DNA of 64,000 bases from Isoetes taiwanensis. Lineage: Eukaryota > Streptophyta > Lycopodiopsida > Isoetales > Isoetaceae. The notes beneath the pieces were generated by a model. It had not been told where the DNA came from. It saw only the letters and a list, made by a program, of their open reading frames with translations, and ran no database searches. The translations under genes were made by a program, and so were the position numbers. The stretch spans positions 5,895,012 to 5,959,011 of the forward strand of contig JAJEKV010000046.1 of assembly GCA_021234155.1 (NCBI GenBank). Reading direction: 5' to 3'. Below, piece by piece: positions 3,891-24,609 of the stretch (position 1 is its first letter; each line of letters opens with the position of its first letter).

Positions 3891-5952
3891 ATGAGGACAA
3901 AACTTGATCTCATTTTTCCTCTAATGCTTGAGGCATGTATTGGGACCATTATCGGTCATAGCTCCGATGGAGATGCACGTCGTACGGCATGTATGCTTGA
4001 AGACTATACATTCTTGAAGCAAGTGAATAGAAGATATGCCATACCTTGGGAGGGTTGGGTGTTTACTGCAGCCATAAGAGATGATGGAAGCATTTGTGAA
4101 CTTCATGATCAAGATTTCATCCATAATGGCAAGAAATTAATCAATCCTGCTTCGAGGAGATTGTATCTAGGAAATGAGTATGTAACGTCAAATGATGTAT
4201 GGCATGTCTTCAACATGTTTCAAGGGGAACATGGACTTCAATTGGGAGATGTTCAAAGGAAAGATTTTGGAGGGCTTCTCAAAGGATAGCTTCACGAAAG
4301 GTTCAGGCTTGTTTGCAAAGATTAAGAGATCCAAGTACATCCAAACCAATGAGAACTTTAGGGACTGAAATATACTTGCATGTTGTTTCCCAATACATTG
4401 ACGTATTTTTATCACCACAATTGGACTTTCGGACACGTGTGGAAGCGGCTTCAACGGTCTCTTTTTTCTTTAGGTATGTTTGAACTGCAATTGAACTTAT
4501 GCTTAATAGTCTCTCCTTCTCATACTCTAATTATAGGTTATGGAGACTATGGATAATCAATCATGAAACATATTCTTTGACCAAGAACTTCATATCCCGT
4601 GAGACATTTCTTGATATTCAGCTCTCATGCCACTTCGTAGTATTGCTAGTCAAGTACTTCAATGAAACATGCACAGGTATGGCTGTCCCATTGCATTGTA
4701 CATGATCAGATTGTTGTGAGAATCTAAAGTAGGCGGCATGGTTAGGAATGAAAGAGCCTATACAGGGGCTGATTTGCTAGAAACATGTAATGCTTTGAAT
4801 AGGGTGGCTGAATTCCAAGCTCTAGATGACTTATTATTCCCTGCTGCACATATAAAACACGAGAACATTTGGCAAGTGCTAGAAAGAAAGGTAGATAATG
4901 CAGGAAATGAAATGAGGGCTGATCTATGTGATCTAAGTCAAGTAAGTACTAATGACAAAATTGTGGATGCCTTAAAGGACGGTTTCAAGTATGCTCAAGC
5001 ATTATGTGCTCAAGCAGGCATTACATGTGATTTAGAAGGCGCATAAACATGGTGGAAAACACCATGGAAACATGAAGATTACTTTCATCGTGACTACTTC
5101 AAGCAATTAGACACTACACAAATTGAAGATGAATCCGATGTTGTTGAGATTGAAGAAGATAATACGAGTATAAGAGACAATAGTGCAAATGAATCCCATG
5201 ATATTGTTGCCGAGATGGAGCTTAGGCACACATTTGAAGCCATGCTTGATGAGATTGAAACCTTGCATTCTGAAATAGATAGAACCGTGAAAGTAGACGG
5301 TAAATTGGTATGCAAGGTCACTTTAGTAAGCCAGCTTAATGGCAATCCTTAGTTGTCAAAAGATAGATTGACAAAAGTTAAACATCATGCTTTTCTTGAT
5401 GCAAATTCGAAGATAGTAAATGCAGCAACTTCACTTGGAATAGGTTCTGATTGTGCAGTTTATTTTGAGAATGATGAGGAGTTAACAAAAAGAATGCGTG
5501 GTGGTGGAAAAGAGCAGCAAAAAAGCTTGGTTTGGTACTTGGGCCGTGTGCTATCTATTCGAAAGAAGGTTGGAAGGGCGTGGAAGGAAAGTAGAGAAAG
5601 CATTGACCTTATTAATAGGCCCTCATACTTGGTGGAGTTGAATTTGGCATGGTACAATGAACACAAGGCAGGAAGAAGGACATGGTTTACCTATGACAAC
5701 TTTGATAATCAAGTAATATCGCTTGATTCCGTCATCTCATTGGCTTGTTTGACATATAAGCCTGAAAATGGTAGATACTTTCTTGATGAAAATGATAGAA
5801 GACAATTTAATGGCTTTCTAAATGATCAAATGAAAGGTGTCTAGCCTCTAATTAAATATGCTTGTATGTTTTATTGTGTTTGCATATTGTAGTCTAATCA
5901 TTTATGTTTATCTTTCTTGTATTTCAGGGAACAAAGGGAAGCAAAAGGTGTG
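3891..5952 (+). pseudogene. Broken gene of a cnidarian/fish/plant transposon-like family
   Basis: From memory this matches an unnamed family common in cnidarian and fish genomes: IGHSSDGDARR near the start, then IPWEGW, HDQDFIHNGKKLINP, a GTEIYLHVVSQYIDVFLS segment, an SDCCE motif, a GGMVRNERAY segment and a late VWYLGRVLSIRKKVG segment. Pieces lie in order: 3891-4266; frame change (a base lost in the T-run near 4265); to 4473; intron 4474-4537 with GTATGT donor and ATAG acceptor; then stop and frame change near 4709-4725; then 4738-5844 in one frame broken by TAA at 5044 and TAG at 5350. A last intron (donor AAAG|GTGTCT, acceptor TTTCAG near 5929) would add about nine codons, ending near 5952. 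At least three stops and two frameshifts show it is dead as read. Function is unknown; a mobile-element origin is inference. Confidence 0.65.
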
Positions 5953-6159
5953 ATTGCCTAAAACAGTAGTTTGCTGATCATAAACAGTAGCATTTGATCA
6001 TAAACAATAGCATTTTGTTATCACAACAATTTTATTATGGCAGAATGCTTCAAATTTCCGTCCAAGACTACAGTCACTTACATGCTTAAAACATTTTGTT
6101 ATGCTTAATAGCATGCTGATCATAAACATTGGCTTTCTTAATGATCTGTTAGTTTTGTA
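5953..6159. other. Spacer with degenerate GATCATAAACA repeats
   Basis: Short imperfect copies of GATCATAAACAGTAGCATTT occur at about 5976, 5996 and 6117. No coding signal. It leads directly into the tandem array that follows. Confidence 0.4.
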
Positions 6160-6372
6160 GAACACCAGAGAACATATTGTAGATCTGTTAGATATGAGAA
6201 CATATTGTAGATTTGAGAACGTATTGTATGAAAACATATTGTATTGTATGAGAACATATTGTAGATCTGAGAACATATTGTATGAAAATATATTGTATTG
6301 TATGAGAACATATTGTAGATCTGAGAACATATTGTATGAAAACATATTGTATGAGAACATATTGTAAATCTG
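6160..6372. repeat. Tandem array of GAGAACATATTGTA units
   Basis: About a dozen imperfect copies of a 12-20 bp unit built on GAACATATTGTA, alternating with AGATCTG or TGAAA spacers. Two higher-order copies of about 56 bp are visible (near 6233-6289 and 6289-6345). Overlapping leftward frames full of MFSYN repeats are by-products of this array, not genes. Confidence 0.85.
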
Positions 6373-6520
6373 AAACCTTGCAAATTTCGTATTAATAATC
6401 AGATTACAGATATTGCTGATCATCAAAAAGGTCTACAGATAAAAATGGTCTCAGAAGCATATGTATATATAAGAATGCTTAAGAAACTTCAAAACAGTTT
6501 GATACTATAGCCTATACTAC

Positions 6521-6583
6521 TGCCGAAACCCTGCTACTACTTAGGCTATGAATGCCGAAATTCTACTACTACTTGGGCTATGA
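6521..6583. repeat. Two-copy tandem repeat, about 31 bp
   Basis: The unit TGCCGAAA..CTRCTACTACTT followed by GGCTATGAA occurs at about 6521-6551 and 6552-6583 with a few mismatches. Non-coding; it sits just left of the retroposed insertion. Confidence 0.7.
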
Positions 6584-6597
6584 AACGGCCTAAAAAT

Positions 6598-7726
6598 CTT
6601 CAACTACAACAACAAGGAGATGGTTCTTAGCGCTGTTGCCTCTGCCTGCGGCTAGGGCGGCAAGGGGAGAGGACGCCGCCCTCCTCTTCCCCGAATCCGG
6701 CACTGCCTCAGCACTCCTAGCAGATCAGAGATAGAACTGGATACTAGCGGGGTTTTGCCATTCTAGTTCAGGTGGATCTTTCTTATCTTTAAAGAATGTT
6801 CCAGATTGCTTGCTTGAAACTGCTTCAAGGCGGCCCGATTTGCTAAAGCTGATAAGCACGATCATGTAAGTTTTCTGGAATTTATCATTTTCTTGTTTAG
6901 AGCAAGATCCGAAAAGGCATACAGCCTATAAGGTAGCAGATTTTTAGCAGAAACATAAAGAGAGCAGTTCTCATGTAAATCTATTCTGGGCAGTCTAATC
7001 TATGGTGGATCTTCTGAATGTTGGCTTTTTCCCCTTCCTCTTGCTCTTTCTTTCTAGTGGAAAGATCTAAGGATGTTGTTTTGGAAGGAGTCAGAGTAAA
7101 TTCTTGATTTTGATTTTACAGTTTTGAAACAGGATGCTTAATTTTTCTGAGATTGCCGAGCTAGGGATATAACTGTGTCCAGGAAGACGCTTCCATATCA
7201 ATCCAGATATCATAAAGCAAAATTTAAGGGTAGTTTTGGTGCTGGGCTGTGTGTCTAGCTTTGCAGGTTGGCTGACTGGCACATCCCGACAATGCAGCAT
7301 CTCCTTTTAATTCTGCATTCTGTAGAAAAATTGCAGAATTAGATCATAGTTTGAAGCAGTTGGGCTTCTCTGAGCAGTGCGGGAGAATTGGTCAGATTAC
7401 TCTTTAGCTCTTTTCTCTTCATTTTTAGTTTTGCAAGAGGATTTTTGGAGCATTCAAGACTTATCTGCAGTTTCTGGAACGTTTGTGCTAAGCTCCTGTA
7501 GTACTTTATCTAAACAGGAAGATTGGTTCTAATCATGTAGTACTGGATAGATAGAAGAAGATGTTGAGATAGGCAGATTAGTACAGAATTTATGGATATG
7601 AAATCTGATCTATATGTGATCTTTGTGCTTAAACTTTATCTGGTCTATGTGAGACCTATGTTGTAATTCTTCCTATCTTTTAATAAAAATTTTCTTTCCT
7701 TCAAAAAAAAAAAAAAACTTCAACTA
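6598..7726 (+). mobile_element. Poly(A)-tailed retroposon with 9-bp target duplication
   Basis: The 9-mer CTTCAACTA flanks the insertion (6598-6606 and 7718-7726). The insert, 6607-7717, starts GC-rich and ends in a T-rich stretch, AATAAAA-like signal and a run of A bases, all on the plus strand. That is the signature of LINE-machinery retroposition. There is no reverse-transcriptase frame, so it is a 5'-truncated LINE, a non-autonomous retroposon or a processed copy of a non-coding or untranslated transcript. The 3' end (TGTAATTCTTCC..TTTTAATAAAA) resembles plant LINE tails from memory, but that alone does not settle which. Confidence 0.75.
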
Positions 7727-8540
7727 GGCATCTTCAACTTCAAAGTCAAGTCATGGCCATTTGATTTTATTTTCAGCTCCAGAAGGTGTTCCTCAGTCAT
7801 GTAAGCACGATCTAAGCACTGCTGGACATCCCGAGAAACTCCAGCACCTTCTCTCTGCAAACGATCCGCCTCTGACTTGGAAAACCTGGCCACAATCCGC
7901 TTTATGCCTGAAGAGCTGGAATTCGCTTTCTAGATCGTCATCTTACCCCTCGCCATGCTCCTATGCTCCTGATCTGCGGCTGCTCTGAAACCTTTCGAAC
8001 CCTAAACAACAGCGACCTATTTCCCCTGTTTCGGCCTTTCGACCCAATCCGACCTATTTTGCCCCTAATTTGGTGCCTTTATTTAATGAGGTAAGATATT
8101 TTTCTCCAATGTAAACAATTGTTAATGCACTTGAGTTCAGTATATGTGCTGCAATAACCTTAGAGCTTTCATTTGATATGGTTGGTCATCTGGACATGAG
8201 AAATCTGGACCTAAACCTAGTCAAAGAGCTTTCGATTTTAGCTAAGCCATGGTGACAGAAGGATTTCTTGTTCATAAATGGCATATAAAGTACATTATCC
8301 TAAAATATTTCAACCATAAAAGCAAATACTTCATATGAAAATATAGTTCTCTGCAATATAAAATAAGTTGATAACAATCTCCAGCTTTATAAAAGTGAAT
8401 GAGAATAGGAATGAAACTCCATCCTGGCTTAACCACTTTCACGATAAAATGCAAAGGTGCCCTAGGCTCATAACTTAAAACAGAAAATTTCCCATTTCCC
8501 TACAGTCAAGATCTGTCCTTTCAACGTAAAAGCAGGGTGC
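7727..8540. other. AT-rich spacer, nothing recognised
   Basis: Short frames only, none with coding character on either strand. No repeat copy from elsewhere in the window was seen. Confidence 0.4.
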
Positions 8541-10179: not shown

Positions 10180-10188
10180 AACTGCAGC

Positions 10189-10791
10189 GGCTCAAGATAC
10201 TTCTACCCTGGATTCGGGGATCCCGGAGCTAGAGATCCCCTCCTCCGGAATCCCCAGGCGTTCTCGACGGGATCCGTTCGGGGACCCCGTTTTCCCGTAC
10301 TGACACATGCACGTACCTATCAGGTCGATCCGGGCCGTCCGAAACCCCGTCGAATCTCCGCCGTCCGCAGAGATCCCCTCCTCCGGGATCACGCTCGGTG
10401 ATCCCCTCCTCCGGGATCACGAGGGACTGGTCGATATCCTGAGCCGATATCGGCCGTGGTGATCCCCTCCTCCGGGATCACGAGGGGCCGGTCGATATCC
10501 TCTCCCGATATCGGCCGTGGTGATCCCCTCCTCCGGGATCACGCTCGGTGATCCCCTCCTCCGGGATCACGAGGTCCTGGTCGATATCCTCTCCCGATAT
10601 CGGCCGTGGTGATCCCCTCCTCCGGGATCACGGGGGACGGTCGATATCCTCTCGATATCGGCCGTGGTGATCCCCCTCCTCAGGGATCCAGGCCCTCGTC
10701 GATATCCTCTCCCGATATCGGCCGTGGTGATCCCTCCTCCTGATCACATCCATGATGTGGTCTGTGATCCCATCCTCGGGATCACCCCCAC
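10189..10791. repeat. Left terminal inverted repeat made of hairpin units
   Basis: Matches the right end (20676-21243) in reverse complement over nearly its full length, from GGCTCAAGATACTTC through to ATCACCCCCAC. After a unique outer 200 bp it is a tandem array of two alternating palindromes: a 23-bp one, GTGATCCC..GGGATCAC (exact copies at 10398-10420, 10459-10481 and others), and a roughly 27-bp one with CGATATC and GATATCG arms. Such arrays are plausible transposase-binding and promoter sequence; that role is inference. Confidence 0.9.
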
Positions 10792-11213
10792 CCCGTTATC
10801 AGTAGAGCGATTCCGACCTCCGGGATCGACGTTGATTGCACATGTGATTCCGGAGGCCGGTATATGAAAGCGTATGGACGTTGGAGATTGAAGCGTAGAC
10901 CCACCCAACGGTCCAGGTTTGAACTTGCCAGCCCATGCACGGACTGGCCACTCGAATGAGGACACGTGTAGGTTCTGAGACCATCCTCCGGGATCACTCC
11001 TGAGTACGTTGTTTCTCTGGTTTCTCTCTGCTGCATGTCGAAGTAGCCTGGTAGAGGAGCGGAATGCCGCAGGCATGGACGAACTAGAGGAGAAGAGAGA
11101 AGAGGTAATCGATTACTAAGTCATCTCAATGAAGAGACATGCATTCCCATTAATATTTTGAGTATTTTTCTCTGACTAAGGGCTGAAATACGGCCCAATC
11201 ACCTCCAAATGGG
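10792..11213. promoter_or_regulatory. Subterminal region and likely 5' region of the transposase gene
   Basis: Between the left inverted repeat and the first transposase exon. It carries further isolated copies of the CCTCCGGGATCAC half-motif (near 10815, 10845 and 10985). In MULEs the inverted repeat and adjacent sequence act as promoter; no TATA box or start is decided here. Confidence 0.4.
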
Positions 11214-12943
11214 TTGTTTGATCATGGCAATCTCCATTGGTATCCTGAAGAGCATCAGGTACCTACTATTCAAGGGGGTGGGCGGATGCTGCTGTGGACC
11301 TGCTACATCCACACCAACCGGGTTCAAGATTTTATTCTTGGTGAGCAGAAGAATTCCCAAGCACCTTGCAACTTCTATCTCCGGAGCTCCGAGGCTGAGA
11401 GAGTGTTAAAAAGACCCTACAAAGATTCCTACTTGACCTTGAAGAGGTATAGACATTGTTAGATTCATGTGTTTCTAATTGGAAATCATCATTGAGTGAA
11501 CCAAGAAGTTATTGTGTTTGCTTGAAGTTATTTTGATTCATTTGAAGTGGTTCTTTTAGAATTACACTTAGGTCTACATTAACTTGTATTTGCATAATAC
11601 AGATATTGGTGTTCATATGGACCTCAAGGCATGACAGCAAACACTCATGTGGTTGAGGATGGACCACGTCCACCGGATAGACGCAGGAAAAGGGTTCAGA
11701 GGGGAGAGGGTGTACGTAGGGGCTGCCAGTGCCATTTCAAGATCAGGCAACTCTATCTCCTTCCAGAATTTTCACATATCACTTATTATGGTTTTGATCA
11801 CAAGAATATCCGAGGTTTGCCTTGCCATGGTAAGTCCATTGACCCTCGGCAAGGGATTAAGTTTTAGTTAGCACCCTGGATCTCACAAGAATTGAAGGAT
11901 TGGGTCCGAGAAAAGCTTGTGCAATGGCACACTCCACGTAGTGTCATGAATATGCATGAAGAGAGATGGAGATTGAAGCGTGATGTGCATGGAACTGAAA
12001 GCATGTGTAGGGATGATGTGCTCAAAATTGGGACGTATACAATGTTGAGAAGGGAGTTGTTAAGTAACACATGGAAGGCGCATGATGATCTTCCAACTAG
12101 CATCTATATGTGGGTTCAACAACACCAAGATTCGGTGTTCATGTATGAGCAAGGAGACTTGTTTCAGTTAGGAGTTATGACTCCAATCCAAAGGGAATCC
12201 ATGTTGAGATTTGGTAAGAATGGAGCCATTTGCATGGACTCAACCTTCAAAACAAATGACAAGAGGTATGATTTTTCTTGAACCTTCATTTTGTACATTG
12301 ATTTATTGGGTATGTATGTTTGTGTAGGTTCTATCTTTTCACACTCATCGCCTTTGATGAGTATTCCAATGGTTTGCCATTGGCTTACGTTCTAACCAAT
12401 TCTCAAGAGAGTGGAGCTATAACAAAGTGGATGCAAGCACTAAAGGAATCCTTATGCCAAGATGATCCTGAATGGCAACCTTCTTGCATCATTACGGATG
12501 ATGCCCATGCTAAGATAAAGGCTGTAAAGAATGTAAGTTGTTGAAACTTAATCCTTGGTTGTGATTCCATATGTACTAACCTTGGTTATTTTTGTAGGTT
12601 TTCCCTAATGTACCCGTGCAAATATGCATTTGGCACGTGAGGAGGGCATGGATTAAATGGTTGCGTAAGAATGTGAAGAACAAGGTGCATCGAAACGAGT
12701 TGTTCAAGGAGCTTGGTTACATTATGTACAGGACAGAAGGCCCTCTTGGAGACAATGAGTATGGGGAAGAGTCACAGGGAAGTCGTGAGGAAAGAGGCCA
12801 CCGAAAATTGGAAGAGTTAGTGAAGAAGTATCCTCAATACCCTAAGTTGGCAGCCTACATGAGTAAGGAGTGGACTAAAAACATTTGTCAATGGGTGTTG
12901 GCTACAAGGATGTACCCTCACTCTAACCAAGAGACAATTGTCG
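11214..12943 (+). pseudogene. MULE transposase, N-terminal and catalytic-core part
   Basis: Exons read 11214-11446, 11603-12265, 12328-12532 and 12598 to about 12943, all with GT-AG borders and consistent phases. The N-terminal zinc-binding FLYWCH/WRKY-like part shows YWCSYGP, a GCQCHFKIRQLY segment and CHGKS. The MULE core shows the first catalytic Asp in CMDSTFKTN, the second in IITDDAHAK and the conserved ICIWHVRRAW with its W-H pair. It resembles the plant SWIM/MULE family that includes an Arabidopsis SWIM-finger protein. An in-frame TAG at 11865-11867 breaks exon 2. Reading stops after SNQETI, where the third catalytic residue (Glu, in an ESYH-like motif) should follow; from about 12940 the sequence is Ty3/gypsy. 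The rest of the gene is at 16378-17120. Confidence 0.85.
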
Positions 12944-13590
12944 AAGTGTCACTTCGCAACGGAGAAGGTGGAATACCTGGGTCATGTGATCTCAGCAGAA
13001 GGCATTGCGACGGACCCTGCAAAGATTGAAGCAGTAATCCAGTGGCCAGCACCGAAGAATGTGCATGAGGTCAGAAGCTTTCTCGGCCTAGCAGGGTACT
13101 ACAGGAAGTTCGTGAAGAACTTTGCTAAGATAGCGGCCCCGATAACAGATTTGACAAGGGCAGAGAAGGTGAAAGATTGGGCACAGCATTGGCACAAGAA
13201 AGCCCAAAAGGGGTTTGAATTGTTGAAGGAAGCTCTGACGACAGCCCCTGTCTTGACCCTGCCAGACCCAGAGAAAGATAAGCTTATAGCCACAGATGCG
13301 AGTAAGATAGCTACAGGTGCGGTGCTTATGCAAGAAGAGTGTGTGGTAGCGTATGACTCCAGGAAGATGAACGACGCCGAAACGCGCTACCCCACGCATG
13401 ATCAGGAGTTGCTTGCGGTTGTCAGGGCATTAAGAATTTGGAGGCACTACCTGTTGGGAAGGAAGTTCCAATTGGATATAGATCATCAGAGCCTCCAGTA
13501 TGTATTCACGCAACCACACCTCAACCTGAGGCAGAGAAGGTGGATGGAGTTCCTTGAAGAGTATGACTTTGATATAGTCTACACGCATTT
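12944..13590 (+). pseudogene. Ty3/gypsy pol fragment: RT thumb and RNase H
   Basis: The reading frame shows [16 protein letters not shown], the RT-RNaseH connection with [28 protein letters not shown] (RNase H Asp), [19 protein letters not shown] and the YDFDIVYT end. It lacks the RT palm, so it starts in the middle of pol. It begins flush against the MULE exon and changes after VYT (about 13585) into gag sequence, which normally lies upstream of pol. No LTR is present. It is a relic carried in the MULE; whether it arrived as an insertion or by capture is not clear. Confidence 0.85.
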
Positions 13591-14150
13591 GGTGGAAGGG
13601 GTATGCCAAGGCACATGGCTTAAGCAGGGATGCTTGCAGGTTCAAGAAGTTTGCTAAAGCCTTCAAGCGCCACTACGTCCCAAGAGAGCACAAGTCTAGC
13701 ATGATGCAGCAGTTCTACAGGTTGCAGCAGGGAAACAAATCAGTCCAGAAATATACAGAGGAATTCATGAGGCTAAGGCTGTATGTGCCAAAGTTGGGAG
13801 AAAAGCATGCAGTTGAGAGCTATATTGAGGGGCTGAATGATGAAATCCGCAAGCTTGTAAGGGCAATAACTAAGACAGTATCATAAGCAGAGTCCAAGGC
13901 AATAAGCTTGCAAGGAACAGGACCTCAGAACAGCGGGCAGAGGCAACAGTATTATCAGGACAAAGGCAAGGCAACAGGAAGTTATAGCCCTAGGGCAGCC
14001 AGCCCAGGTCCAGCTAGAGCCCCATATGGTGGAAATCAAGGGAAGCAGCAGGAGAAGAAGCAGGTGTCCTTCAAGGACAAGCAGGAGGGGTCAAACTACT
14101 CCAAAGCAGTGCGATCCTTTTTGCAGGCTATGCCACAAACAAATGGGCAT
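13591..14150 (+). pseudogene. Ty3/gypsy gag fragment, out of order after pol
   Basis: Reads as a retrotransposon gag: [59 protein letters not shown] and a downstream Gln/Gly/Ser-rich linker. It is placed 3' of a pol fragment, the reverse of normal order, with a stop at 13884 (TAA) and frame changes. Nucleocapsid Cys residues are not clearly present. The order shows that this segment is a shuffled product. Confidence 0.75.
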
Positions 14151-15812
14151 CAAACAACTCTATCGTGCCCCATATGACATCAAATTGGCTAATGGCCATA
14201 TCACGAGACCTCAAGGCGTCACGCCTCTTCTTCACATCAACATTGGTGATCTCCGCTTCCCCTTGGAATTTGGTGTTTGGAAGGCTGGAGAAGATCCAGG
14301 TGATTATGAAATGTTGGTCGGCAGACCTTTTCTCCGCCAGGCCAAGAGTATCCATTACTGGGCCACGGATCAGTTAGTCATCACCGATGGTCACCTCAAT
14401 GCCACCATGGACTTGGAAACCGGCAAGACCATTTCAGTTGACCATGCTGAACCCTCTCTCTCCGACACAGATTCTGAGGACGCCCAGAATATCTATCATG
14501 TTCAGGCTCCACCTGCGAGTCTGCCTCTGTCATCCTACCCCGAATATGCTGATCCTTGGGGGGAAATGACTCTTGATCAGAACCAGACTGTGGCTGCTTT
14601 GCTTGACCCTTACCTGGCTCCTTGCAATCGGATCCAACGTGTTGATCACTTTTCAGAGGCTGACTCTCCTGCAGCCCCTGTAGATGTACACGCTGTCATG
14701 AAGCAACCTCTGCTTGATGAAACTCAGCAACCTCTCTTCTTCACAACGCAGAGTGCCACGCATCCTGTCATGCTTCAACCTCCTGCTCATATTGTCGAGG
14801 ACACGGAAGTTATCCCCCATATTCAGACTTCTGAAGTTGAGATAGTGGATGTGGGCAACAATCAGCCTGTCCGCATTGCTGCAAATCTTCCGACTCCCTA
14901 TCGTAACAGAGCCGTCACGCTCTTCAAAAAGTTCAAACACATTTTCGCCTGATCTTCGGGGGATCAACAAAACCTTGGTGGAACTCACCATTCCTACCAA
15001 ATCTGATGCACGTCCAGTATAGCAACGACAGTACCGGCTCAACCCCAATTACCGTGATCGCGTCAAGGCAGAAATTGACAAACTCCTTGCTGCGGGTTTG
15101 ATCTATGAGGTCAAACATTCTGAATGGGTGAGCCCCATCGTCATTGCACTCAAACACAATGGTAAGATCCGCATTTGCGTGGACTACCGAAAACTAAATC
15201 AGGCCACGGAGCGTGATCATTTTTCACTTCCCTTCACCGACCAGGTTCTGGAAGAGGTTGCAAGACATGAGATGTACTCCTTCATGGATGGTTTTTCTGG
15301 CTACAATTAGATCTCAATCAAAGAATCTGATCAACTCAAGACTACTTTCACCACCCCGTGGGGCACTTTTGCCTACAAGGTGGTTCCTTTTGGATTATCA
15401 AACTCTCCATCAACGTTTCAACGCATCATGCTCTCAGTTTTTCATGATTTTATGAAGGAAAATCCCTTCTTGCAAATTTTTCAAGATGACTTCTCTGCCT
15501 ACAGTTCCATGGTTGACCATTTGGATAAATTGGAACTCGTCTTTCAGAAATGTGATGAGTCCGGCATTAGTCTCAATTCTGAGAAATGCACCTTTTGCGT
15601 CACCTCCGGTGTTCTGTTAGGACACGTTGTCAGCAAAGCAGGTATAACCACAGATCCTACCAAAATCAGTTGTGTGCTCAAGGCTCAAGCACTCGCCAAT
15701 ATCAAGGAGACACGCTCTTTTCTGGGTAAGGTCAATTATTACTCCACCTTCATTCCTGGACTGGCAGCCATTGCAGATCCCATTCATAAACTCACGGGTG
15801 ATGAATCCACTT
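14151..15812 (+). pseudogene. Second Ty3/gypsy fragment: protease region and RT
   Basis: The frame to 14952 includes a retropepsin-side region (DYEMLVGRPFLRQAKSIHYW) and a long acidic/Pro linker. After a +1 shift near 14950 and a TAG near 15020, RT follows: VSPIVIALKHNGKIRICVDYRKLN, SFMDGFSGYN then TAG at 15308, TPWGTFAYKVVPFGLSNSP and the active site FQDD (canonical F-x-D-D), then GHVVSKAGI and SFLGKVNYYSTF. Its codon and sequence style differ from the preceding pol fragment, so it comes from a different Ty3/gypsy family. It ends at about 15805 and DUF7869-like sequence begins within about 10 bp. Confidence 0.85.
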
Positions 15813-16377
15813 GAGCGTCCACTTGAGTACATGTCCGTTGTGATTGATGGAATGGATCAGAAAAAGACGACTCTACCTCATTTCTTGAACATTCCAAAAG
15901 ATGTGCCAGAAGAATGCTTTGTCAAGGTCCACCTCGTAGGGGCCATGGTCTTCAATGGGAGTCTAAAGTGCAAAGTCTTTTTAACATATTCTAATTTGCA
16001 TGGTGATCCAAATCTCACAATTACAATTCTTAACAAGGTTCTTTGTGAGCAACAGCATTTACCACCAATGCTCTACCTGCAACTTGACAACACTACCAGG
16101 GAGAACAAAAATCAAACACTCTTTGCTTACTGTGCCATGCTAGTGGAGCTGGAGATTTTCAGAAAAATAAAGCTCGGATTCTTACTAGTAGGGTATACAC
16201 ACGATCAAATAGATCAGATGTTCAGCAAGTTTTCAGTGCGTCTCAGAAGAAAAAAAGCTTTTTGTCTTCCCACTTTGGTTCGTATCATTGAAGACTCTTA
16301 CACTCCCATGCCAGTAGTTGAGCTTCTAAAGGAGACTGCCGACTTCAGTATGGCATTGTGCCTTGAAGAGGCGCCTG
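15813..16377 (+). pseudogene. DUF7869-like domain fragment fused in the MULE
   Basis: The open frame reads MSVVIDGMDQKKTTLPHF, a LTITILNKVL segment, LYLQLDNTTRENKNQTLF, GFLLVGYTHDQIDQMFS and a final PVVELLKETADF. The order IDGMDQ, LQLDN-x-x-RENKN and VG-x-TH-x-x-IDQ-x-FS is what I recall for the DUF7869 family, abundant in cnidarian, oomycete and fern transposon-associated proteins; it carries D/E/H residues in a transposase-like order. The match is from memory. The open frame runs for about 188 codons with no stop before 16386. It joins flush to the recovered MULE frame at 16378. It is unlikely to be translated as an independent protein here. Confidence 0.7.
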
Positions 16378-17120
16378 GGCATTTCTAAACGTGCACTTCG
16401 AGGAAGGAGGATTGATTGGCTGCTCTACATCCTAACCAATAACGTGGAGACACACATGACATACATCAGGTATAGTTCCTACACATCTAATCCTTCTCTC
16501 TAGCCTTTGTGTTTATATGATTCCTTTGTGTTGTAGGTCCATGAAGGAAGCAGGCTTTGTAGTAAACACATCCCAGGAGGAGATAATAGAGTCGCCATAA
16601 CGTGGTGCAAGGAAGATTGCTGATGAACAAGTCACATTCACCAACCGAGGAAGGTGAGGCGAAGTGCAAAGCAAACGTACTCTAGGGCTAGGTCCTTACT
16701 TTGTGAGCAGGGGCACACAAGAATTGGGCATCTTTGTGGATGCCCTTGGGGAGCCAAGGGCAACTTGTGTAAACACCGGGTTAAGGTTATGCAATTCTTT
16801 GGGCAACTCTGAGAGATCGGGATCTTTTACATGTGCTTGGTTTCCAATATGGGACAATTCTTTGGGGGCATGGACCAGTTGAGGCCATGTGAGGAGATAG
16901 TTCCATGGGAGGGAAACCCATGTGAAGATGTGGCCGACATTGTATGCTTGGGAGAGAGTCTCTCTCCCAAATGGAGAGAAGGTTTAACTTGGATAAGACT
17001 CGTGCATCCTTACAAGAAGTAATTGCTAGAGTGGTGTCAAGGCGCGAAAAAGATCCTAGCATGCTTGTTGCTCTTGATTCTCTTATGAGACAACTCGACA
17101 CTAGGCTAGAGAATGAATGA
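16378..17120 (+). pseudogene. MULE transposase, C-terminal part with SWIM finger
   Basis: Just past the DUF7869-like piece the frame reads SKRALRGRRIDWLLYILTNN, typical of the helical region after the catalytic Glu in this MULE family. The exon ends at 16469 with GTATAG and the next begins at 16537 after TTGTAG. An in-frame TAA near 16598 breaks it. The SWIM zinc finger C-G-C-(8)-C-K-H lies at 16735-16776 (CGCPWGAKGNLCKH). The C-terminus, about 16979-17120, is an acidic helical tail ending at TGA 17118-17120. This confirms that 12944-16377 interrupts one gene. Confidence 0.8.
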
Positions 17121-18133
17121 TGTTGGGGGACCAACATGGTAGCCATAACAAGTCTCCCCACCTTGGCAATTGAAGAGAAGTGTGGAAATAGTTTGGCCGG
17201 GCTCAAGCCTTTGATAGAGCTTGGGAGCAGGAAGGACAAGGAAATCAAGAAGAGCTGGAAGCAAGTTGAGATGGAGGGATATTGTAAGTATTCAGTTGAA
17301 CGTAGAACATGTTAAGTCATTTATGAGTTTACTTTCAATTGTTCTCACTACATCACGATAACTTAGGGGGCAACGCAACTCATTTAAGAAATCAAACCAT
17401 TGAGGTTAAATTGGGACATTTAAGAACCGGACGTGTGATCCGGAGGTGGGGATCACCGGCATCTCTGAAAGAATATGCCTTAATATCGAAAATAGTAACC
17501 ATACCATTGAAATTAAATAATGCTTTTTTAATGGACGTGTGATCCCTCTTAGAGGGATCCCCATTAATTATGTTGTGATCCGGAGGAGGGATCATCCCAA
17601 GATCTACAACGAATATTGAAATTAAATAATGATTTTTTCGCGGACGTGTGATCCCGGAGGAGGGGATCCCTAATAATAATGTTGTGATCCCGGAGGCGGG
17701 GATCACAACATAATTATCAAGGGACATTGACACATTGACCAATATTTCACATTGACCAATATTTCCGCAGAATTGTCTCATATTCCACATTGACCAATAT
17801 TTCACAAAAGTTAAGTTCATTTCTTATATTCATATGTGCATACAGTTTCCTCAAATTACATTCAAATATCTGATTAGATCCATTGTTATTTTCGGGGCCA
17901 TTTAACAACAGACGGGTAATGCTGGGCCGAGAACTGATCCGGGCCTTGGGGCAAATAGAAAGTGGATTTCCCTTGGGCTAGAAACAGTCCACTCAATTTC
18001 TGCAAAGCGTAATGAAACAACTGCTTGGGGTATTGTCTATCTCTTCCTTCTGGAACCAATCCCGGGTAATGACAACCTGAAAAAGAACAATCTGAAAAGT
18101 GACAATTCTGAAAAGTGACAATTCTTAAGTCAT
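17121..18133. repeat. Spacer between convergent genes with internal hairpin copies
   Basis: The MULE gene ends at 17120 and the protease gene ends at about 18134, so both 3' ends face this spacer. Copies of the terminal-repeat palindrome GTGATCC..GGATCAC occur around 17435-17455, 17540-17595 and 17645-17706. They could act as terminators or as extra protein-binding sites; this is inference. A three-copy TTCACATTGACCAATATT motif lies at 17725-17805. Confidence 0.6.
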
Positions 18134-18700
18134 TCAGAATTGTGATTTACCCGATCTTTGGTCTTTGCAAACATCTCGAATAAATCTATTCACATAATTT
18201 ACCACATATACACCACAATCTTGGCTGTTATGTTGCTGGGGAGCATCCATCAGTATGCAAGGAGCATTGTGAAGTGCTGATTCCTCGTGCTTCCACCTCT
18301 TGAATAGGTCACTCAAGAACACGGAAATGTAATCCGAGTTCAATCCTAAAATAAGAACCTAATTACCTATCTTTGAAACCATAAATATGTGTACAACTGA
18401 AATAACTCACAAAGTTATGAAGCCTCGAACATCTGCATCTGGGGATCATAAGAATCAAAGTGCAAGATGCAGGCGGGGGCTGTTCGACCGGCATGCCAAT
18501 TGATCAACAACTAATATAAACAGGCTCCAATGGCCCTTTGCGGTTCGATAAAACTAATCACCATACAATTAAAAATGAAGGGGATCTTTTAACTTCACAA
18601 GCGGATGTTACCTTGCATTAACGAGGGAATGTAGTAGTCTTGAACATCTTTGAATTCTCCATTGAGCGGCTTTGCCAAACGGTGATGGCGGGATCAACTT
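18134..18700 (-). pseudogene. ULP1-type cysteine protease (C48) of the MULE
   Basis: Read leftwards, exons give FKDVQDYYIPSLMQ near 18625-18665, HWSLFILVVDQL near 18495-18532, FDSYDPQM near 18435-18460, and HNSQDCGVYVVNYVNRF near 18185-18235. These supply the C48 triad in order: His (codon 18530-18532), Asp (18454-18456), and Cys in QDCG (18215-18217) with the preceding Gln. They lie on separate exons: introns between them are expected and TAA/TAG stops appear if read straight through. ULP1 (SUMO-protease-like) domains accompany transposases in some MULE and CACTA elements; the host role is not known. An N-terminal extension is not resolved. Confidence 0.75.
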
Positions 18701-20675
18701 TGCAAATTGGTCATATGCCCGCCTAAACCTGCCTTGCTTCCACTTAGAAATAATCCGAATCGGCAGGGGTGAACCATTACATGGTGACATCTCTTCCGAA
18801 TAGGAATCGAATGGACAAGTACCACGAGGAGAGGATATGCAAATTAAAAGCGAAATTCCACTCACGGTAAAAGCAAAATTAAAAGCAAAATTACACTCCA
18901 CGGTAAAGAAGCTCCAATGCGGTCGGCATCCACCTCGCATGCCAAATCTCAGAGGCCACTTGGAATTGTTTGGAATTTTTGGGCCTGCCTCCGGTGATGA
19001 AGAACTCCCGCAGTTGCGATTTGTCGCCCACCTTAAGTAGCGGACTCTCCACAACAATTGGATATGTCAATGTGAAATTAAAGGTCCATCTCTCACATTG
19101 CGGACCTCTACGGTAGGACGTAAACAGCAATGTGAAAGGAGGGATCTATGCAATACAAATAATGAAATCTTATCCTGGCTGGGTTTTATCTTTGGAATCG
19201 GGCTCCTCTTAGGTCATCGATTCGGATTCTTGAGAAATAATATGATTGGGAGCCATGGTAGCAGATTCTCATTGGCCTTAGTCGGCTTGGCTTCAATGGT
19301 GCATCCGAGCGATGTGGTGTCCTCCTTTTAACACAGGGAGATTTCAGATTATCATCTGCGGCAGACCACGAATTCGGCACTCCAATGGAATCAAGTCCAC
19401 TTGGGCTGCTCGGAATCCCATTTAGGGCTGGGCGGCCAAATTTCCGACTTCGGTGACCCCATTGCCATGGCTCAGAGCAATTCGAGCCAATTTCCCTTAT
19501 TTGCTTCTCCACAGGATTCGAGCTCTGTGCTTTCTTTCTGAACACGCAAATTGATGAAGTCGGCTCGCCCTTGGGTAGAAGCAATCAATATCTATCTGTT
19601 GATCGCCAATCTTGCTGCAGCTCGTCTAGTCCTTTGAAGTTTCACGGTCAAGTTATGGGCGTTTTGAAATCCGGATCACAAGATCGGGCGCCACACTATC
19701 TTCCCATAGTCCCTCTCCTTGGATTCACCCTTGCCGTTGTTGCCGGGAATCCGACCCTTGGAGCATCGGGGAGCTTGAAATTCTCATAAATCTGGTGTGC
19801 CCCGAACCTATGATTTTCTAAATCAACCTTTCTGTGTAGCTCTTATCGCAGACGTCTACGGCACCTCCATCTGGGGTCAACCCGATCATCTGCGGGTAGT
19901 CCAGGGGGCTCTTCTGTGGGTGCTCCAAGAAATCTTCCCTATCAACATCGCCATCCCCTTGAGCCCCATGAATATCCTTACGCCAATGAGCCTCAACAGA
20001 GGTGGATTTTTATCTGCGGGGCTCGACAAGCTGTTGTCGGATCGGGGCTTTTAGCCCTTTTTCTTCTCTTTGGAAGGGGATTCCACCTCGTATCGATTCA
20101 AACCCCACTATATCTACGAAACACCGTAACTTAAGAGAATTTGCAGCCTCATCTCCTAGCCCCCGTTCTCATTTATGGAGGTATTCAAGCTAATTTCCGG
20201 GTTAACAGTTAGATCCATCCGCAAGGACGGGGCAAAAAAACGTTAAAAAACAAAGCAAAGGTTAAAAAATAGTAAACCGAGGTCGTAGAGGTCTATTCAC
20301 GATTTTTACCTTAAACAAGTGAAAGTAACTCCTGGGCGCCATTCATCGAGACACAGTGACTACAAAGCCCTTTGAATCGGGCCCTCTCCTCTCAAAAAAT
20401 GGCGCGAAAGGTCGTGGTTCGTGAGCCCTCCTAAAATTGCACTCTAGAAAGTGGGAATTCCCTCCTCCTCCTAATCACTTGTCCACGTGGCGGCACATTA
20501 TTGGCAACGTCGGGCGTAATAACTCGATCGTCCCTTTAAATTTGAAAGGCCGCTTGGATGCTACCGTGGGCAGCTTAAATTTGCAGGGCGTGATTAGAGG
20601 GCGGATAACCGACGGTCACGATTTGACGACCATTGGCATCGCGGGCATCGCTGCCGATGGCCGAGATAGCGAGTC
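18701..20675. other. GC-richer interior, probable upstream part of the protease gene
   Basis: Leftward frames at 18608-19057 and 19186-19584 are long and free of stops, rich in Ser, Pro and Arg, with no recognised domain. They lie where a disordered N-terminal region of the protease gene would be. I cannot define exons or a start. Rightward frames here look like shadows. A match to organellar DNA was considered and not supported. Confidence 0.35.
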
Positions 20676-21243
20676 GTGGGGGTGATCCCGAGGATGGGAT
20701 CACGGCCTGTCATGGATGTGATCCCCGAGGAGGGATCACCACTACGATATCGGGAGGGATATCGGCGAGGGCCTCGTGATCCCTGAGGAGGGATCACCAC
20801 GACATCGAGAGGATATCGACCAGCCCCTCGTGATCCCGAGGAGGGATCACCGCCGATATCGAGAGGATATCGACCGTGACCTCGCGATCCCGAGGAGGGG
20901 ATCACCGAAAGATCCCGGAGGGGATCACCACGCCGTATCTGAGAGGATATCGACCCGCCCCTCGTGATCCCCCCAGGAGGGGATCACCACGGCGAGCACG
21001 GCCAGATATCGACCGCCCCTCGTGATCCCGGAGGAGGGGATCACCGTGATCCCCGAGGAGGGATCTCGGGATCCGACGGAGATTCGACGTGGTTTCGGGA
21101 CGGCGGATGACCAGCGACAGTGCGTGCATGTGTCAAGACGGAAAACGGGGTCCCCTGAACGGATCCCGTCGAGAACTGGATTCCTGGGAGGAGGGGATCT
21201 CTAGCTCGGGATCCCCTAATCCAGGGTAGAAGTATCTTGAGCC
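20676..21243. repeat. Right terminal inverted repeat made of hairpin units
   Basis: Reverse complement of 10189-10791, ending in TTGAGCC at 21243. It carries the same alternating GATCCC..GGGATC palindromes and GATATCG/CGATATC arms. The unit count and small indels differ from the left end, so the two arrays have diverged by unit gain or loss while the outer 100 bp stays close. Confidence 0.9.
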
Positions 21244-21252
21244 AACTGCAGC

Positions 21253-21975: not shown

Positions 21976-24609
21976 TTACGAGTTGCATATTTCTTTGCAT
22001 GTTCCTTCCCTTCCCTTGTTAGAACACGCACTAAGAAATGATGTCCATGCAACAAACTTGAGAGTCGAAAACACACTATTAAGTACATCTTCAGCCTCAT
22101 CTATGCAACCGCTGCGACTAAGGAGGTCGATGTATATTATGTGATGCTCTTGTGTTGGCACACTTCCATAGATTTGGCTCATGCCACTGAACAAATGAGA
22201 TCCGTCATCCAAAAGTCCGATGTGACTGCAACCAGATAAAATGGAAAGAAAGGTAAACTTATCTGGCTGCACCCCTTCTTCTTGCATTTTTCTAAACAGA
22301 AATACTGCTGCTTTACCATGCCCGTGTTGAGCATATCCGGCAATCATCACTGACCAGGCAACCGCATCCTTTGCAAATAATCTTTCGAACACCTGGCATG
22401 CATTGCTTAACTTCCCACATTTGGCATACATATCAATGAGAATATTCCCTAATGTCGCATCTAATTCCCAACCATTTGTTATAATAAGACAGTGGAGTTC
22501 CTTGCCTTGCTCTAGGGCAGCAATGGTAGCACATGCACCAAGAATGCAGACAAGGGTCACCTTGCTGGCTTTCAATCCTTGTTCTTGCATCTGCTTAAAG
22601 AGTTTTAACGACTCCTTAATGCCACCATTTTGTGCATAACCTCTTATCATCGTGCTCCACGACACCATATCCCAGACCCTCATATTATTAAACAGTTTTT
22701 GTGCATTATTTAGGCTGCCATGTTTTGCATACATGTCAAGGAGTGCATTTTCTACAAATATATCCATTGTATATCTCTTTTGCAAGATGTGAGCATGGAC
22801 ATGTTTTCCATATCCTGCCTCTTCTATTACATTGAGAATGCTGACAAGGGTAACCTCATTTGGCTCAACACTAAATTCTTGCATCTGCCAGAAAAGTGTG
22901 AGAGCTTCTTGAGGATTCCGATGTTGTGCATATCCAGAAATCATTGTGCTCCATAAAACTGCATCTTGAGAATGCATTATGTTAAATATGAAACGTGCAT
23001 CGTGTATGCTTCCACATTTTGCATACATGTCAATGAGTGTACTTTGGACAAATATGATTGACTCATGTCCATTCTTTAACACATAAGCATGGAACCATTT
23101 GCCCTGGTCCAGAGCTGACATACTTGTGCACGTATTCAAAATGCTGATCAGGGTCAGAACATTTGGTTTCACAAGGTTCTGCTCCATTTTATGGAAAATG
23201 TGAATGGCTTCCTTACAGTAACCATTCAGGGTAAAAGCTGATACCAGTGCAGTCCATGATACCACATCAAGTCTAGACATTTTCTTGAATATTTGGCAAG
23301 CATCGCCTAGACTTCCAGATTTAGCATACATGTCAATAAGCGCACTCTCTACAAAAATGTCAGACTCATAAGATGACGTTATGGCGTGAGCATGAAGCCA
23401 TTTCCCAGGAGCTAGGTTTATGCATGCGCTGGTAGTGCTAGCCAACGTTATATTATCTGGTTTTGTACCTCCAACCACATGGGAAAATAACCTAATAACT
23501 GCCTTTCCATCTTCATGAAGAGCATATCCAACGATCATGGCATTCCATGAAATGATATCCTGTGTCGGCATAAGATCAAAAACTAGACAAGCATCCTTTG
23601 TACTTCCACACTTACTATACATGTCAATGAGTGCATTCTCAATACTAAGATCCAACTCAATACCAGCACTCAAAATGCTTGCATGAATTAATTTCCCACT
23701 TTGGAAAGATTGGATCTGTGCACATCCATTGAGAATGCTAAGAAATGTTATTCTGTTGGGCCGTAAGCCAACTTGCTTCATTTGCCCTAAAAGTGCCAAA
23801 GCTTCCTTCCCATCCCCATGACGGACATATCCCAAGATCATGACATTCCAAGAAACTAAATCTCGTATGCGCATTCTGTTAAACAGTTCTCTAGCATTTT
23901 CTATGCAACCACATTTAGAATACATATCAATTATTGTATTCACAACTATGGTGTCATACTCATATCCAGTTCCCTTGATACCTTTTTCCACCTCCTTTCC
24001 CTGCTCCAAGGCTCGTGTATTTGTGCAAGCACGAAGAATACTTAGAAATGTAGCTCTGTTTGGTACTAGTCCTTCATTTTTCATATGCTGAAAGAGATAA
24101 ATAGCCTTGTTGACATCTGCATGGTTAGCATATCCCCCAATTATTGTTGTCCATGTACAAAGATCATGCTCGGGTATGACACTGAATATATGATGTGCAA
24201 AAACTATACTTCCACACTTGATATACATATTTAAAAGAGTGTTCCACAAAAAAGGGTTCACCCAAATGCCACAGGTTACAATGTGAGCATGTATACGTTT
24301 TCCTTGCTCAGTAGCTTTTGCCGTGGCACATACATGCAACAAACTTACATAAATATCATGAGGAATTCCACTGCCTGCTGTTACCATATTGTCCCAACCT
24401 TTCAAGGCATTTTTCAAGCATCCCTCCTTGGAATGTGTTCGTATCTCATGGACAGTAGCCAAATGTCTACCCCTTTGCTTAATTTCAAAGGCGCTGGGTC
24501 CGAAATGAGGGTGATCACAATTATGCATTTGATGCATGCCATCGGGTCTGTGTTTAATTAGGTGGTTGAGGTCTTTGCTGTTATTACTAATCGAGCAATT
24601 AGAGAACAT
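21976..24609 (-). CDS. PLS-class pentatricopeptide repeat protein, short C-terminus
   Basis: An intronless 877-residue protein made of about 24 tandem PPR motifs in P-L-S arrangement. Diagnostic repeats recur about every 100 residues: NALIDMYSKCGS, DIISWNAMIVGYALH, GLRPNRITFLSILNGC and variants. This class acts in chloroplasts or mitochondria, binding RNA and usually specifying C-to-U editing. The repeat tract reads cleanly from residue 85 to the end, with no frameshift. The C-terminus ends at SACSNKGREGTCKEICNS, inside the usual E1 region, with no E2 or DYW deaminase domain, so it would need a partner in trans to edit, or act otherwise. A clear transit peptide is not obvious in the first 40 residues. 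I take the ATG at 24609 as the longest start. Neighbouring PPR fragments show the family is expanding and decaying here. Confidence 0.9.
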   Translation of the reverse strand: MFSNCSISNNSKDLNHLIKHRPDGMHQMHNCDHPHFGPSAFEIKQRGRHLATVHEIRTHSKEGCLKNALKGWDNMVTAGSGIPHDIYVSLLHVCATAKATEQGKRIHAHIVTCGIWVNPFLWNTLLNMYIKCGSIVFAHHIFSVIPEHDLCTWTTIIGGYANHADVNKAIYLFQHMKNEGLVPNRATFLSILRACTNTRALEQGKEVEKGIKGTGYEYDTIVVNTIIDMYSKCGCIENARELFNRMRIRDLVSWNVMILGYVRHGDGKEALALLGQMKQVGLRPNRITFLSILNGCAQIQSFQSGKLIHASILSAGIELDLSIENALIDMYSKCGSTKDACLVFDLMPTQDIISWNAMIVGYALHEDGKAVIRLFSHVVGGTKPDNITLASTTSACINLAPGKWLHAHAITSSYESDIFVESALIDMYAKSGSLGDACQIFKKMSRLDVVSWTALVSAFTLNGYCKEAIHIFHKMEQNLVKPNVLTLISILNTCTSMSALDQGKWFHAYVLKNGHESIIFVQSTLIDMYAKCGSIHDARFIFNIMHSQDAVLWSTMISGYAQHRNPQEALTLFWQMQEFSVEPNEVTLVSILNVIEEAGYGKHVHAHILQKRYTMDIFVENALLDMYAKHGSLNNAQKLFNNMRVWDMVSWSTMIRGYAQNGGIKESLKLFKQMQEQGLKASKVTLVCILGACATIAALEQGKELHCLIITNGWELDATLGNILIDMYAKCGKLSNACQVFERLFAKDAVAWSVMIAGYAQHGHGKAAVFLFRKMQEEGVQPDKFTFLSILSGCSHIGLLDDGSHLFSGMSQIYGSVPTQEHHIIYIDLLSRSGCIDEAEDVLNSVFSTLKFVAWTSFLSACSNKGREGTCKEICNS

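Follow-up and report, generated by a model that had tools for sequence, protein, structure and literature searches.

Arabidopsis VANDAL elements are Mutator-like transposons (MULEs) whose VANC proteins bind tandem motif arrays in the non-coding regions of the elements (PMC10398659), and in the available parts of the literature consulted they are the elements for which transposon-encoded anti-silencing with motif arrays has been described so far. KIU elements likewise carry VANC genes, with an Ulp1 domain, according to the accessible text of PMC13317346. Here we describe an element from the quillwort Isoetes taiwanensis that lies within a 64-kb stretch of genomic DNA, referred to as the window throughout, and that is near certainly a single insertion of a MULE of the terminal inverted repeat (TIR) type. 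Its terminal arms hold arrays of a 23-bp palindrome, the A unit, which recurs across a whole clade of MULEs, both in their arms and in the stretch that separates their two convergent genes. With a probability of about 0.55, we read these arrays as putative binding sites for an element-encoded protein, perhaps serving anti-silencing as in the Arabidopsis VANDALs.

Several known systems share parts of this anatomy. Maize MuDR is a TIR MULE with two convergent genes, as in the quillwort, but its TIRs are not palindrome arrays and mudrB, its second gene, is not an Ulp1 gene. As far as the available text of PMC5735166, PMC10398659 and PMC13317346 describes them, VANDAL and KIU elements resemble the quillwort clade in having a second element-encoded protein and tandem arrays of short motifs, variable in unit number, in non-coding regions. 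Their transposase is also more conserved than the second protein, which in KIU has Ulp1 (PMC5735166, PMC13317346). VANDAL TIRs are degenerate in these accounts, whereas the quillwort TIRs measure 568–603 bp. Melon, rice and grapevine also have Ulp1-bearing MULEs, which are described as carrying transduplicated Ulp1 in the accessible part of PMC13317346; they share that domain, but the quillwort second gene (gene 2) is recurrent, convergent with the transposase gene and shows signs of purifying selection between families.

Composite ends are known from Tm1, a Mutator/Foldback family of root-knot nematodes that, in the text available of PMC3169594, has 9-bp duplications, composite inverted ends of variable length with tandem repeats, and a transposase in one category of copies. 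Tm1 repeats 13–15-bp units, whereas the quillwort repeat is a 23-bp dyad common to several families, and its outermost 7-bp motifs are asymmetric, whereas the quillwort ends are symmetric (PMC3169594). The quillwort elements differ further in holding large arrays between two convergent genes, and they share with Foldback-type elements long TIRs of internal tandem repeats that vary between copies. Rehavkus elements, as the accessible text of PMC6446971 presents them, have 9-bp duplications, TIRs of up to 400 bp and a minisatellite before the 3' TIR, but a single open reading frame (ORF) with a PHD finger and arthropod and annelid hosts; Pfam matched no PHD finger in the pieces from the window or from loci L001 and L035. 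Composite MULE ends, Ulp1-bearing MULEs and an end-near minisatellite are known already, and the feature that appears new is the clade-wide dyad in arms and centre. A preliminary description of the window had proposed that the termini may define a new subfamily; a distinct family within a large clade is what stands of this, while composite repeated MULE ends have the precedent of Tm1 (PMC3169594). Our literature searches encountered no MULE-clade dyad motif in both arms and an intergenic centre, and turned up no recognised paper on the clade or on Isoetes MULE ends, although the motif letters were not queried and this is weak evidence of absence.

A 23-bp palindrome marks a clade of quillwort MULEs

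In the genome searched (1.658 Gb, 1,110 contigs), the perfect A palindrome, GTGATCCC-N7-GGGATCAC, occurs at 1,849 sites and its reversed control at none. The first 50 sites, taken in contig order rather than as a random sample, form seven clusters on five contigs, and all seven lie in or beside elements of one MULE clade. Sequence fetched at the clusters on contigs C12, C18, C29 (158 kb), C30 and C57 (187 kb) matches clade elements, while those at 58–63 kb of C29 and 158–160 kb of C57 are linked to the clade by a terminus within ~5 kb, and the former also by a match to gene 2. A motif this numerous, and tied to the clade in every cluster checked, provides a sharp handle for finding such elements and for a simple DNA-binding test.

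Sister elements carry the common terminus GGCTCAGGATAGTCTTACCCTGG, and the two with both ends seen (C30 and L035) have exact 9-bp duplications. A units, 3 to 21 in number, lie between the two genes in all six sister elements in which both genes were placed by ORF or blastn (L031, L032, L033, L034, L035 and C30; L036, which is interrupted by another element, was left out). The largest arrays of these elements are found mid-element, kilobases from the ends. In the window family, 16 of 20 copies have a few central A units, and the larger arrays are in the arms. The arms of this family also hold a 27-bp palindrome, the B unit, whose strict form, GGTCGATATC-N7-GATATCGGCC, occurs at 93 sites (39 + 54 by strand). 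By eye, 91 of these lie within 10 kb of window-family places, the other two being on C957 and C1065. We rejected the idea that the B palindrome is exclusive to the window family, since looser GATATC pairs are present in sister elements.

To compare individual units we use the working labels W for the window family, S for a group that includes the partial fetches L022, L023 and L024, and T for two loci; these labels do not represent a tree. The commonest 16 palindrome-arm bases are identical in W and S despite near-saturated silent sites, and the repeat monomers differ, at ~61 bp in the W arms and ~140 bp in the S centres. Adjacent A units often start 28–29 bp apart in both groups, the commonest distance in W being 61 bp. 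Units with 0, 1 and 2 arm mismatches number 174, 142 and 73 in W, 101, 78 and 35 in S, and 7, 19 and 27 in T. Of the perfect-arm units, 145 of 184 in W, 95 of 101 in S and all 7 in T have a spacer of 7 nt, and the spacer often contains CCTCC or its complement. Within the core GATC, the bases ATC count among the most constant of the motif. Changes in the palindrome arms are mostly one-sided, as in 509 of the 586 changed pairs in W (units with 1–3 arm mismatches). Because the spacer is mostly 7 bp and the changes are mostly one-sided, a protein-binding dyad fits better than a selected hairpin. Our data show the A palindrome to be a dyad built of GGGATC half-sites around a spacer that mostly stays at 7 bp; tandem duplication has multiplied it in both terminal arms and in the space between the two genes.

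Composite ends vary from copy to copy

The left terminal arm (603 bp) aligns with the reverse complement of the right (568 bp) at 93.3% identity (518 of 555 columns, with 61 gap positions). It had been claimed from the letters of the window that both ends are built of 23-bp and 27-bp palindromes; the left array is indeed so built, but the outer ~180 bp are not array and the right arm is less regular. The left arm contains five perfect 23-bp palindromes (at 10398, 10459, 10520, 10548 and 10609) and three perfect 27-bp palindromes (10429, 10490 and 10579), besides imperfect ones, and the right arm one perfect 23-bp unit, or six under a looser pattern. The window as a whole has seven perfect 23-bp palindromes, against none in each of 100 dinucleotide shuffles. 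The outer ~180 bp form a conserved terminal block that is 90–99% identical across the other rows of a genome search with the outer 182 bp. Across 20 copies the composite ends vary from 2 to 9 A units and from 0 to 7 B units per end (loose patterns, outer 900 bp).

The assembly (1658.30 Mb; 204 scaffolds and 909 contigs) is described in the available text of PMC8566536 as based on nanopore R9.4.1 reads. Many 1–2 base indels are possibly nanopore errors, which leaves uncertainty in arm identity, in unit counts and in the broken frames, and the irregularity of the right arm may in part stem from such error. The left arm of the window scores 0.979 against the arm of another copy and 0.864 against its own partner, which ranks 17th of 39; either exchange between copies or, in the right arm, uncorrected reads may account for this difference. 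Within-element homogenisation of both arms was considered as a general rule and rejected, as the own partner ranks first in just 4 of 20 copies.

Insertion, copies and natural length of the element

As the preliminary description held, a 9-bp target-site duplication is intact and exact at both borders: AACTGCAGC abuts the element on either side and has no third occurrence on either strand of the window. The corresponding empty site, with a single AACTGCAGC, was found on contig C73. There, positions 89412–90011 match a query of 300 bases from each window flank, joined by one AACTGCAGC, at 97% identity over 600 of 600 bases. Similarity runs on for 3,300 bp at 98.2% on the right flank and for ~1.4 kb at 91%, with 87 gap positions, on the left. 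It follows that either haplotypes are polymorphic for the insertion or a duplicated segment lacks it.

The element has many genomic copies, and the counts given here are lower bounds, since the genome searches scored part of the candidates. When the outer 182 bp were used as the query (40 of 348 candidates scored), 41 of 41 rows started at query base 1, so that other copies start at the same outer boundary. The internal region 11001–12940 recurs at other genomic places at 92–98% identity (46 rows; 40 of 738 candidates scored). Among 20 paired copies, the window and 19 fetched ones, the 9-bp duplication is exact in 15; a further copy has an exact duplication of 10 bp, another agrees at 8 of 9 positions and three have none. 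The two ends of 19 of the 20 copies read GGCTC, inverted relative to each other; L016 has CGCTC at one end. The fragment L020 (C1082:3891800-3892500), excluded from the duplication count, consists of stray outer-end fragments of 61 and 182 bp that stand face-to-face within 269 bp without a target duplication.

The 11-kb length first reported describes a genuine MULE, but its natural length is ~7.6 kb, to which the window copy adds 3.4 kb of filler. This filler (12941–16349) is missing from all 15 fetched copies that span the point, and on this ground we rejected both 11 kb as the natural length and the DUF7869 and Ty3 pieces as genes of the element. L011 also resumes at 16350, having lost the stretch immediately before that position, and the region is lacking in L013, L015 and L016. 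The filler holds Ty3-type pieces in permuted order, namely RNaseH (13265–13564), gag (13560–13841) and reverse transcriptase (15152–15625), and a DUF7869 domain (15909–16358). The filler substitutes for ~13–16 bp, a short junction deletion, around NAAIEAW, which we take to be the region of the catalytic glutamate of the transposase, and the transposase of the window copy is broken by it. L011 and L012 lack, with exact boundaries, a 58-bp GT..AG stretch that we take to be a transposase intron; judged by coordinates, it is lacking at C1089 too, making 3 of 40 scored places. These copies look as if they had arisen via spliced RNA or by precise intron loss.

Two convergent genes under unequal constraint

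The MULE domain PF10551 scores 19.7 bits in the window, 21.3 in L001 and 23.8 in L035 (E 1.2e-3 to 6.4e-5), in each case below the cutoff of 27.6. The SWIM domain PF04434 passes its cutoff (19.6) in the sister element L035 with 20.5 bits and reaches 10.1 bits in L001; a C-terminal SWIM zinc finger is common among MULE transposases. The first transposase piece of L035 gave just two matches in a Pfam scan, both far below cutoff. The motif DSTFKTN presumably holds the first catalytic D, and in L034 we discerned by eye what we take to be the D, D, E and C/H residues of transposase motifs. In a 131-codon piece, the window family W and group S differ by nonsynonymous and synonymous rates of dN 0.09–0.10 and dS ~1.7, the DNA being ~73% identical. 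The dN/dS ratio of the transposase piece is 0.05–0.14 between families and 0.26–0.52 within the window family (six pairs with few changes), which shows that the piece is under purifying selection.

The transposase gene and gene 2 are convergent in 24 of 24 same-contig pairs, which were hand-picked by eye and are not a full count. The Ulp1/C48 domain of gene 2 passes its cutoff of 20.7 bits in L001 (24.4) but not in L035 (20.0) or the window (19.0); what we take to be the active-site H, D, Q and C are legible in L001 and L035. Scores for the C2H2 finger, 18.7 bits in L035 and 14.5 in L001, are both under the cutoff of 25.2, and the 579-aa gene-2 frame of L034 had no Pfam match. There are signs of purifying selection on gene 2 in the three usable between-family pairs, with dN/dS of 0.17 and 0.22 for L031 and L034 against L035 and 0.26 (dS 2.1) for L033 against L035, although the measure is weak, silent sites being saturated in 10 of 15 pairs. 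Between W and sister groups dN is 0.49–0.59 for gene 2 versus 0.09–0.10 for the transposase, which is the more conserved of the two. Within gene 2 the C2H2 block is best preserved, with 35–40 of 51 residues identical, compared with 30–40% identity upstream and 54–68% just downstream.

Possible function of the arrays

We propose that the 23-bp dyad would be bound by a dimer of an element-encoded protein, the C2H2-Ulp1 protein being the likeliest candidate and the transposase the alternative. Binding at many sites would then keep the element expressed against host silencing, like VANC on VANDAL arrays, while the outer terminal block rather than the array would serve as the cleavage signal. The C2H2-Ulp1 protein appears the likeliest binder, and anti-silencing or expression control the likeliest use, because the anatomy is VANDAL-like, the transposase is the more conserved protein and the C2H2 block is the best kept part of gene 2; we infer both the binder and the effect of binding. 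Eight short elements with the same termini (L038–L045, 428–638 bp) bear on the role of the arrays in movement. Most have internal sequence in common, none of the eight has a strict A unit or any B unit, and four have an exact 9-bp duplication. To judge from their termini, these elements were probably moved by the clade's transposase. As they are mobile without arrays, long arrays are not required for movement.

Several observations weigh against the proposed binding and anti-silencing role of the arrays. VANDAL target motifs change fast between related families in the available text of PMC5735166, whereas the quillwort motif has a stable core. VANC is a DUF1985/DUF287 protein, whereas quillwort gene 2 has a C2H2 finger and gave no Pfam match to a VANC domain (DUF1985/DUF287) in the window, L001, L034 or L035. 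The near-constant GGGATC core is more in keeping with a conserved binder than with a fast arms race. Nor is the motif invariant: in group T, 7 of 76 units (up to four arm mismatches) are perfect, and the changes fall mostly at positions T2/A7, so that identical arms across all families had to be rejected. Arms common to families could result from exchange between families. In two close pairs gene 2 has dN/dS of 0.76 and 0.81, possibly a sign of relaxed selection or an effect of sequencing error. Double Watson-Crick changes, counted in group S with T2/A7 included, number 14 against a shuffle mean of 5.5, which 0 of 500 shuffles reach, a small signal for pairing or symmetric half-sites. Finally, one or two core dyads (GATCCC-N6-8-GGGATC) are retained ~78–111 bp from an end in seven of the eight short elements, so that the transposase may recognise this half-site as well. 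We regard the transposase as a fair alternative binder.

Taken further, this last point would make the dyads accessory transposase-binding sites that raise occupancy, help the ends to pair or autoregulate the promoter, an explanation that we consider possible but rather unlikely. Subterminal repeats serve as transposase-binding sites in other plant DNA transposons. Besides the core dyads near the ends of the short derivatives, it is consistent with this explanation that the GGGATC half-site is also present in the outer terminal block, and that the motif core is about as stable as the transposase and not variable like gene 2. It fits less well that L043, the short element without a core dyad, still has an exact 9-bp duplication, and that the sister elements have their largest arrays so far from the ends.

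Selection of the palindromes as hairpins, in cruciform DNA or in RNA (for example at the transcript ends of convergent genes or as RNA-silencing decoys), appears improbable. The left array (10371–10791) does fold strongly as single-stranded DNA (z = -8.07; 0 of 100 shuffles as low), central arrays lie between two convergent genes, and the excess in group S points the same way. Outside T2/A7, however, double Watson-Crick changes show no excess over shuffles: among 514 W, 245 S and 63 T units we counted 0, 4 and 0, where shuffles average 5.9, 2.3 and 1.0; the ceiling of three mismatches possibly lowers the observed counts. Even with T2/A7 included there is no excess in W, with 37 changes for a shuffle mean of 30.9, or in T, with 9 for a mean of 11.9. 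The loop is moreover constrained in length and often in its CCTCC content. The termini had been presented as hairpin arrays, and hairpins as the selected feature are not favoured by these counts. That the arrays are functionless minisatellites, spread passively by slippage and unequal exchange, is hardly likely either: unit number does differ from copy to copy and arms are mostly not closest to their own partner, as exchange would give, yet different monomers, from groups whose silent sites are nearly saturated, have their commonest 16 arm bases and the 7-bp spacer in common.

If the arrays are binding sites for the C2H2-Ulp1 protein, a broader and more doubtful proposal is that a lycophyte MULE clade may possess its own sequence-specific anti-silencing or expression system, in which C2H2-Ulp1 dimers would act on a clade-wide 23-bp dyad amplified in arms and centre. 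Such a system would have arisen independently of the Arabidopsis VANC system and would differ from it in retaining a single little-changed core across many families. Were this true, one element could protect or mobilise many, and the clade would provide a second, apparently independent case of transposon-encoded anti-silencing, with a Ulp1 protein and a stable motif core, showing the generality of the strategy and why several MULEs carry Ulp1.

Features of the window and its surroundings

The features of the element are collected in Table 1.

Table 1. Features of the quillwort MULE and its borders, in window coordinates.
Feature	Position	Strand	Remark
Left 9-bp target-site duplication AACTGCAGC	10180..10188	.	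Also single in the C73 empty site
Left TIR: conserved block (outer ~180 bp) followed by the array of A (23-bp) and B (27-bp) palindromes	10189..10791	+	
Array of A units (GTGATCCC-N7-GGGATCAC) and B units (GGTCGATATC-N7-GATATCGGCC)	10376..10785	+	
Transposase, upstream coding piece, contains DSTFKTN	11598..12265	+	
Presumed transposase intron, 58-bp GT..AG stretch	12266..12323	+	L011 and L012 lack exactly this stretch
Transposase, region of the MULE domain (PF10551; 19.7 bits, under the cutoff of 27.6) and CIWHV block	12326..12936	+	
Filler: Ty3-type RNaseH, gag and reverse transcriptase pieces, and DUF7869	12941..16349	.	Not seen in other fetched copies
Transposase, C-terminal pieces, SWIM region, broken frames	16345..17288	+	
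Small central A-palindrome group between the convergent genes (17435 with looser arms; 17684 perfect)	17435..17706	.	
Broken second gene: N-terminal part, including the C2H2 zinc-finger region (~19830), and a piece of the Ulp1/C48 protease (18158-18253)	18158..20261	-	
Right TIR	20676..21243	-	
Right 9-bp target-site duplication AACTGCAGC	21244..21252	.	

Among the sister MULEs, L036 contains Ty1/copia-like open frames, recognised by eye, at its positions 4925–7853. In the window, an 877-aa open frame (21976–24609, minus strand) that is PPR-like by eye lies ~0.7 kb beyond the element.

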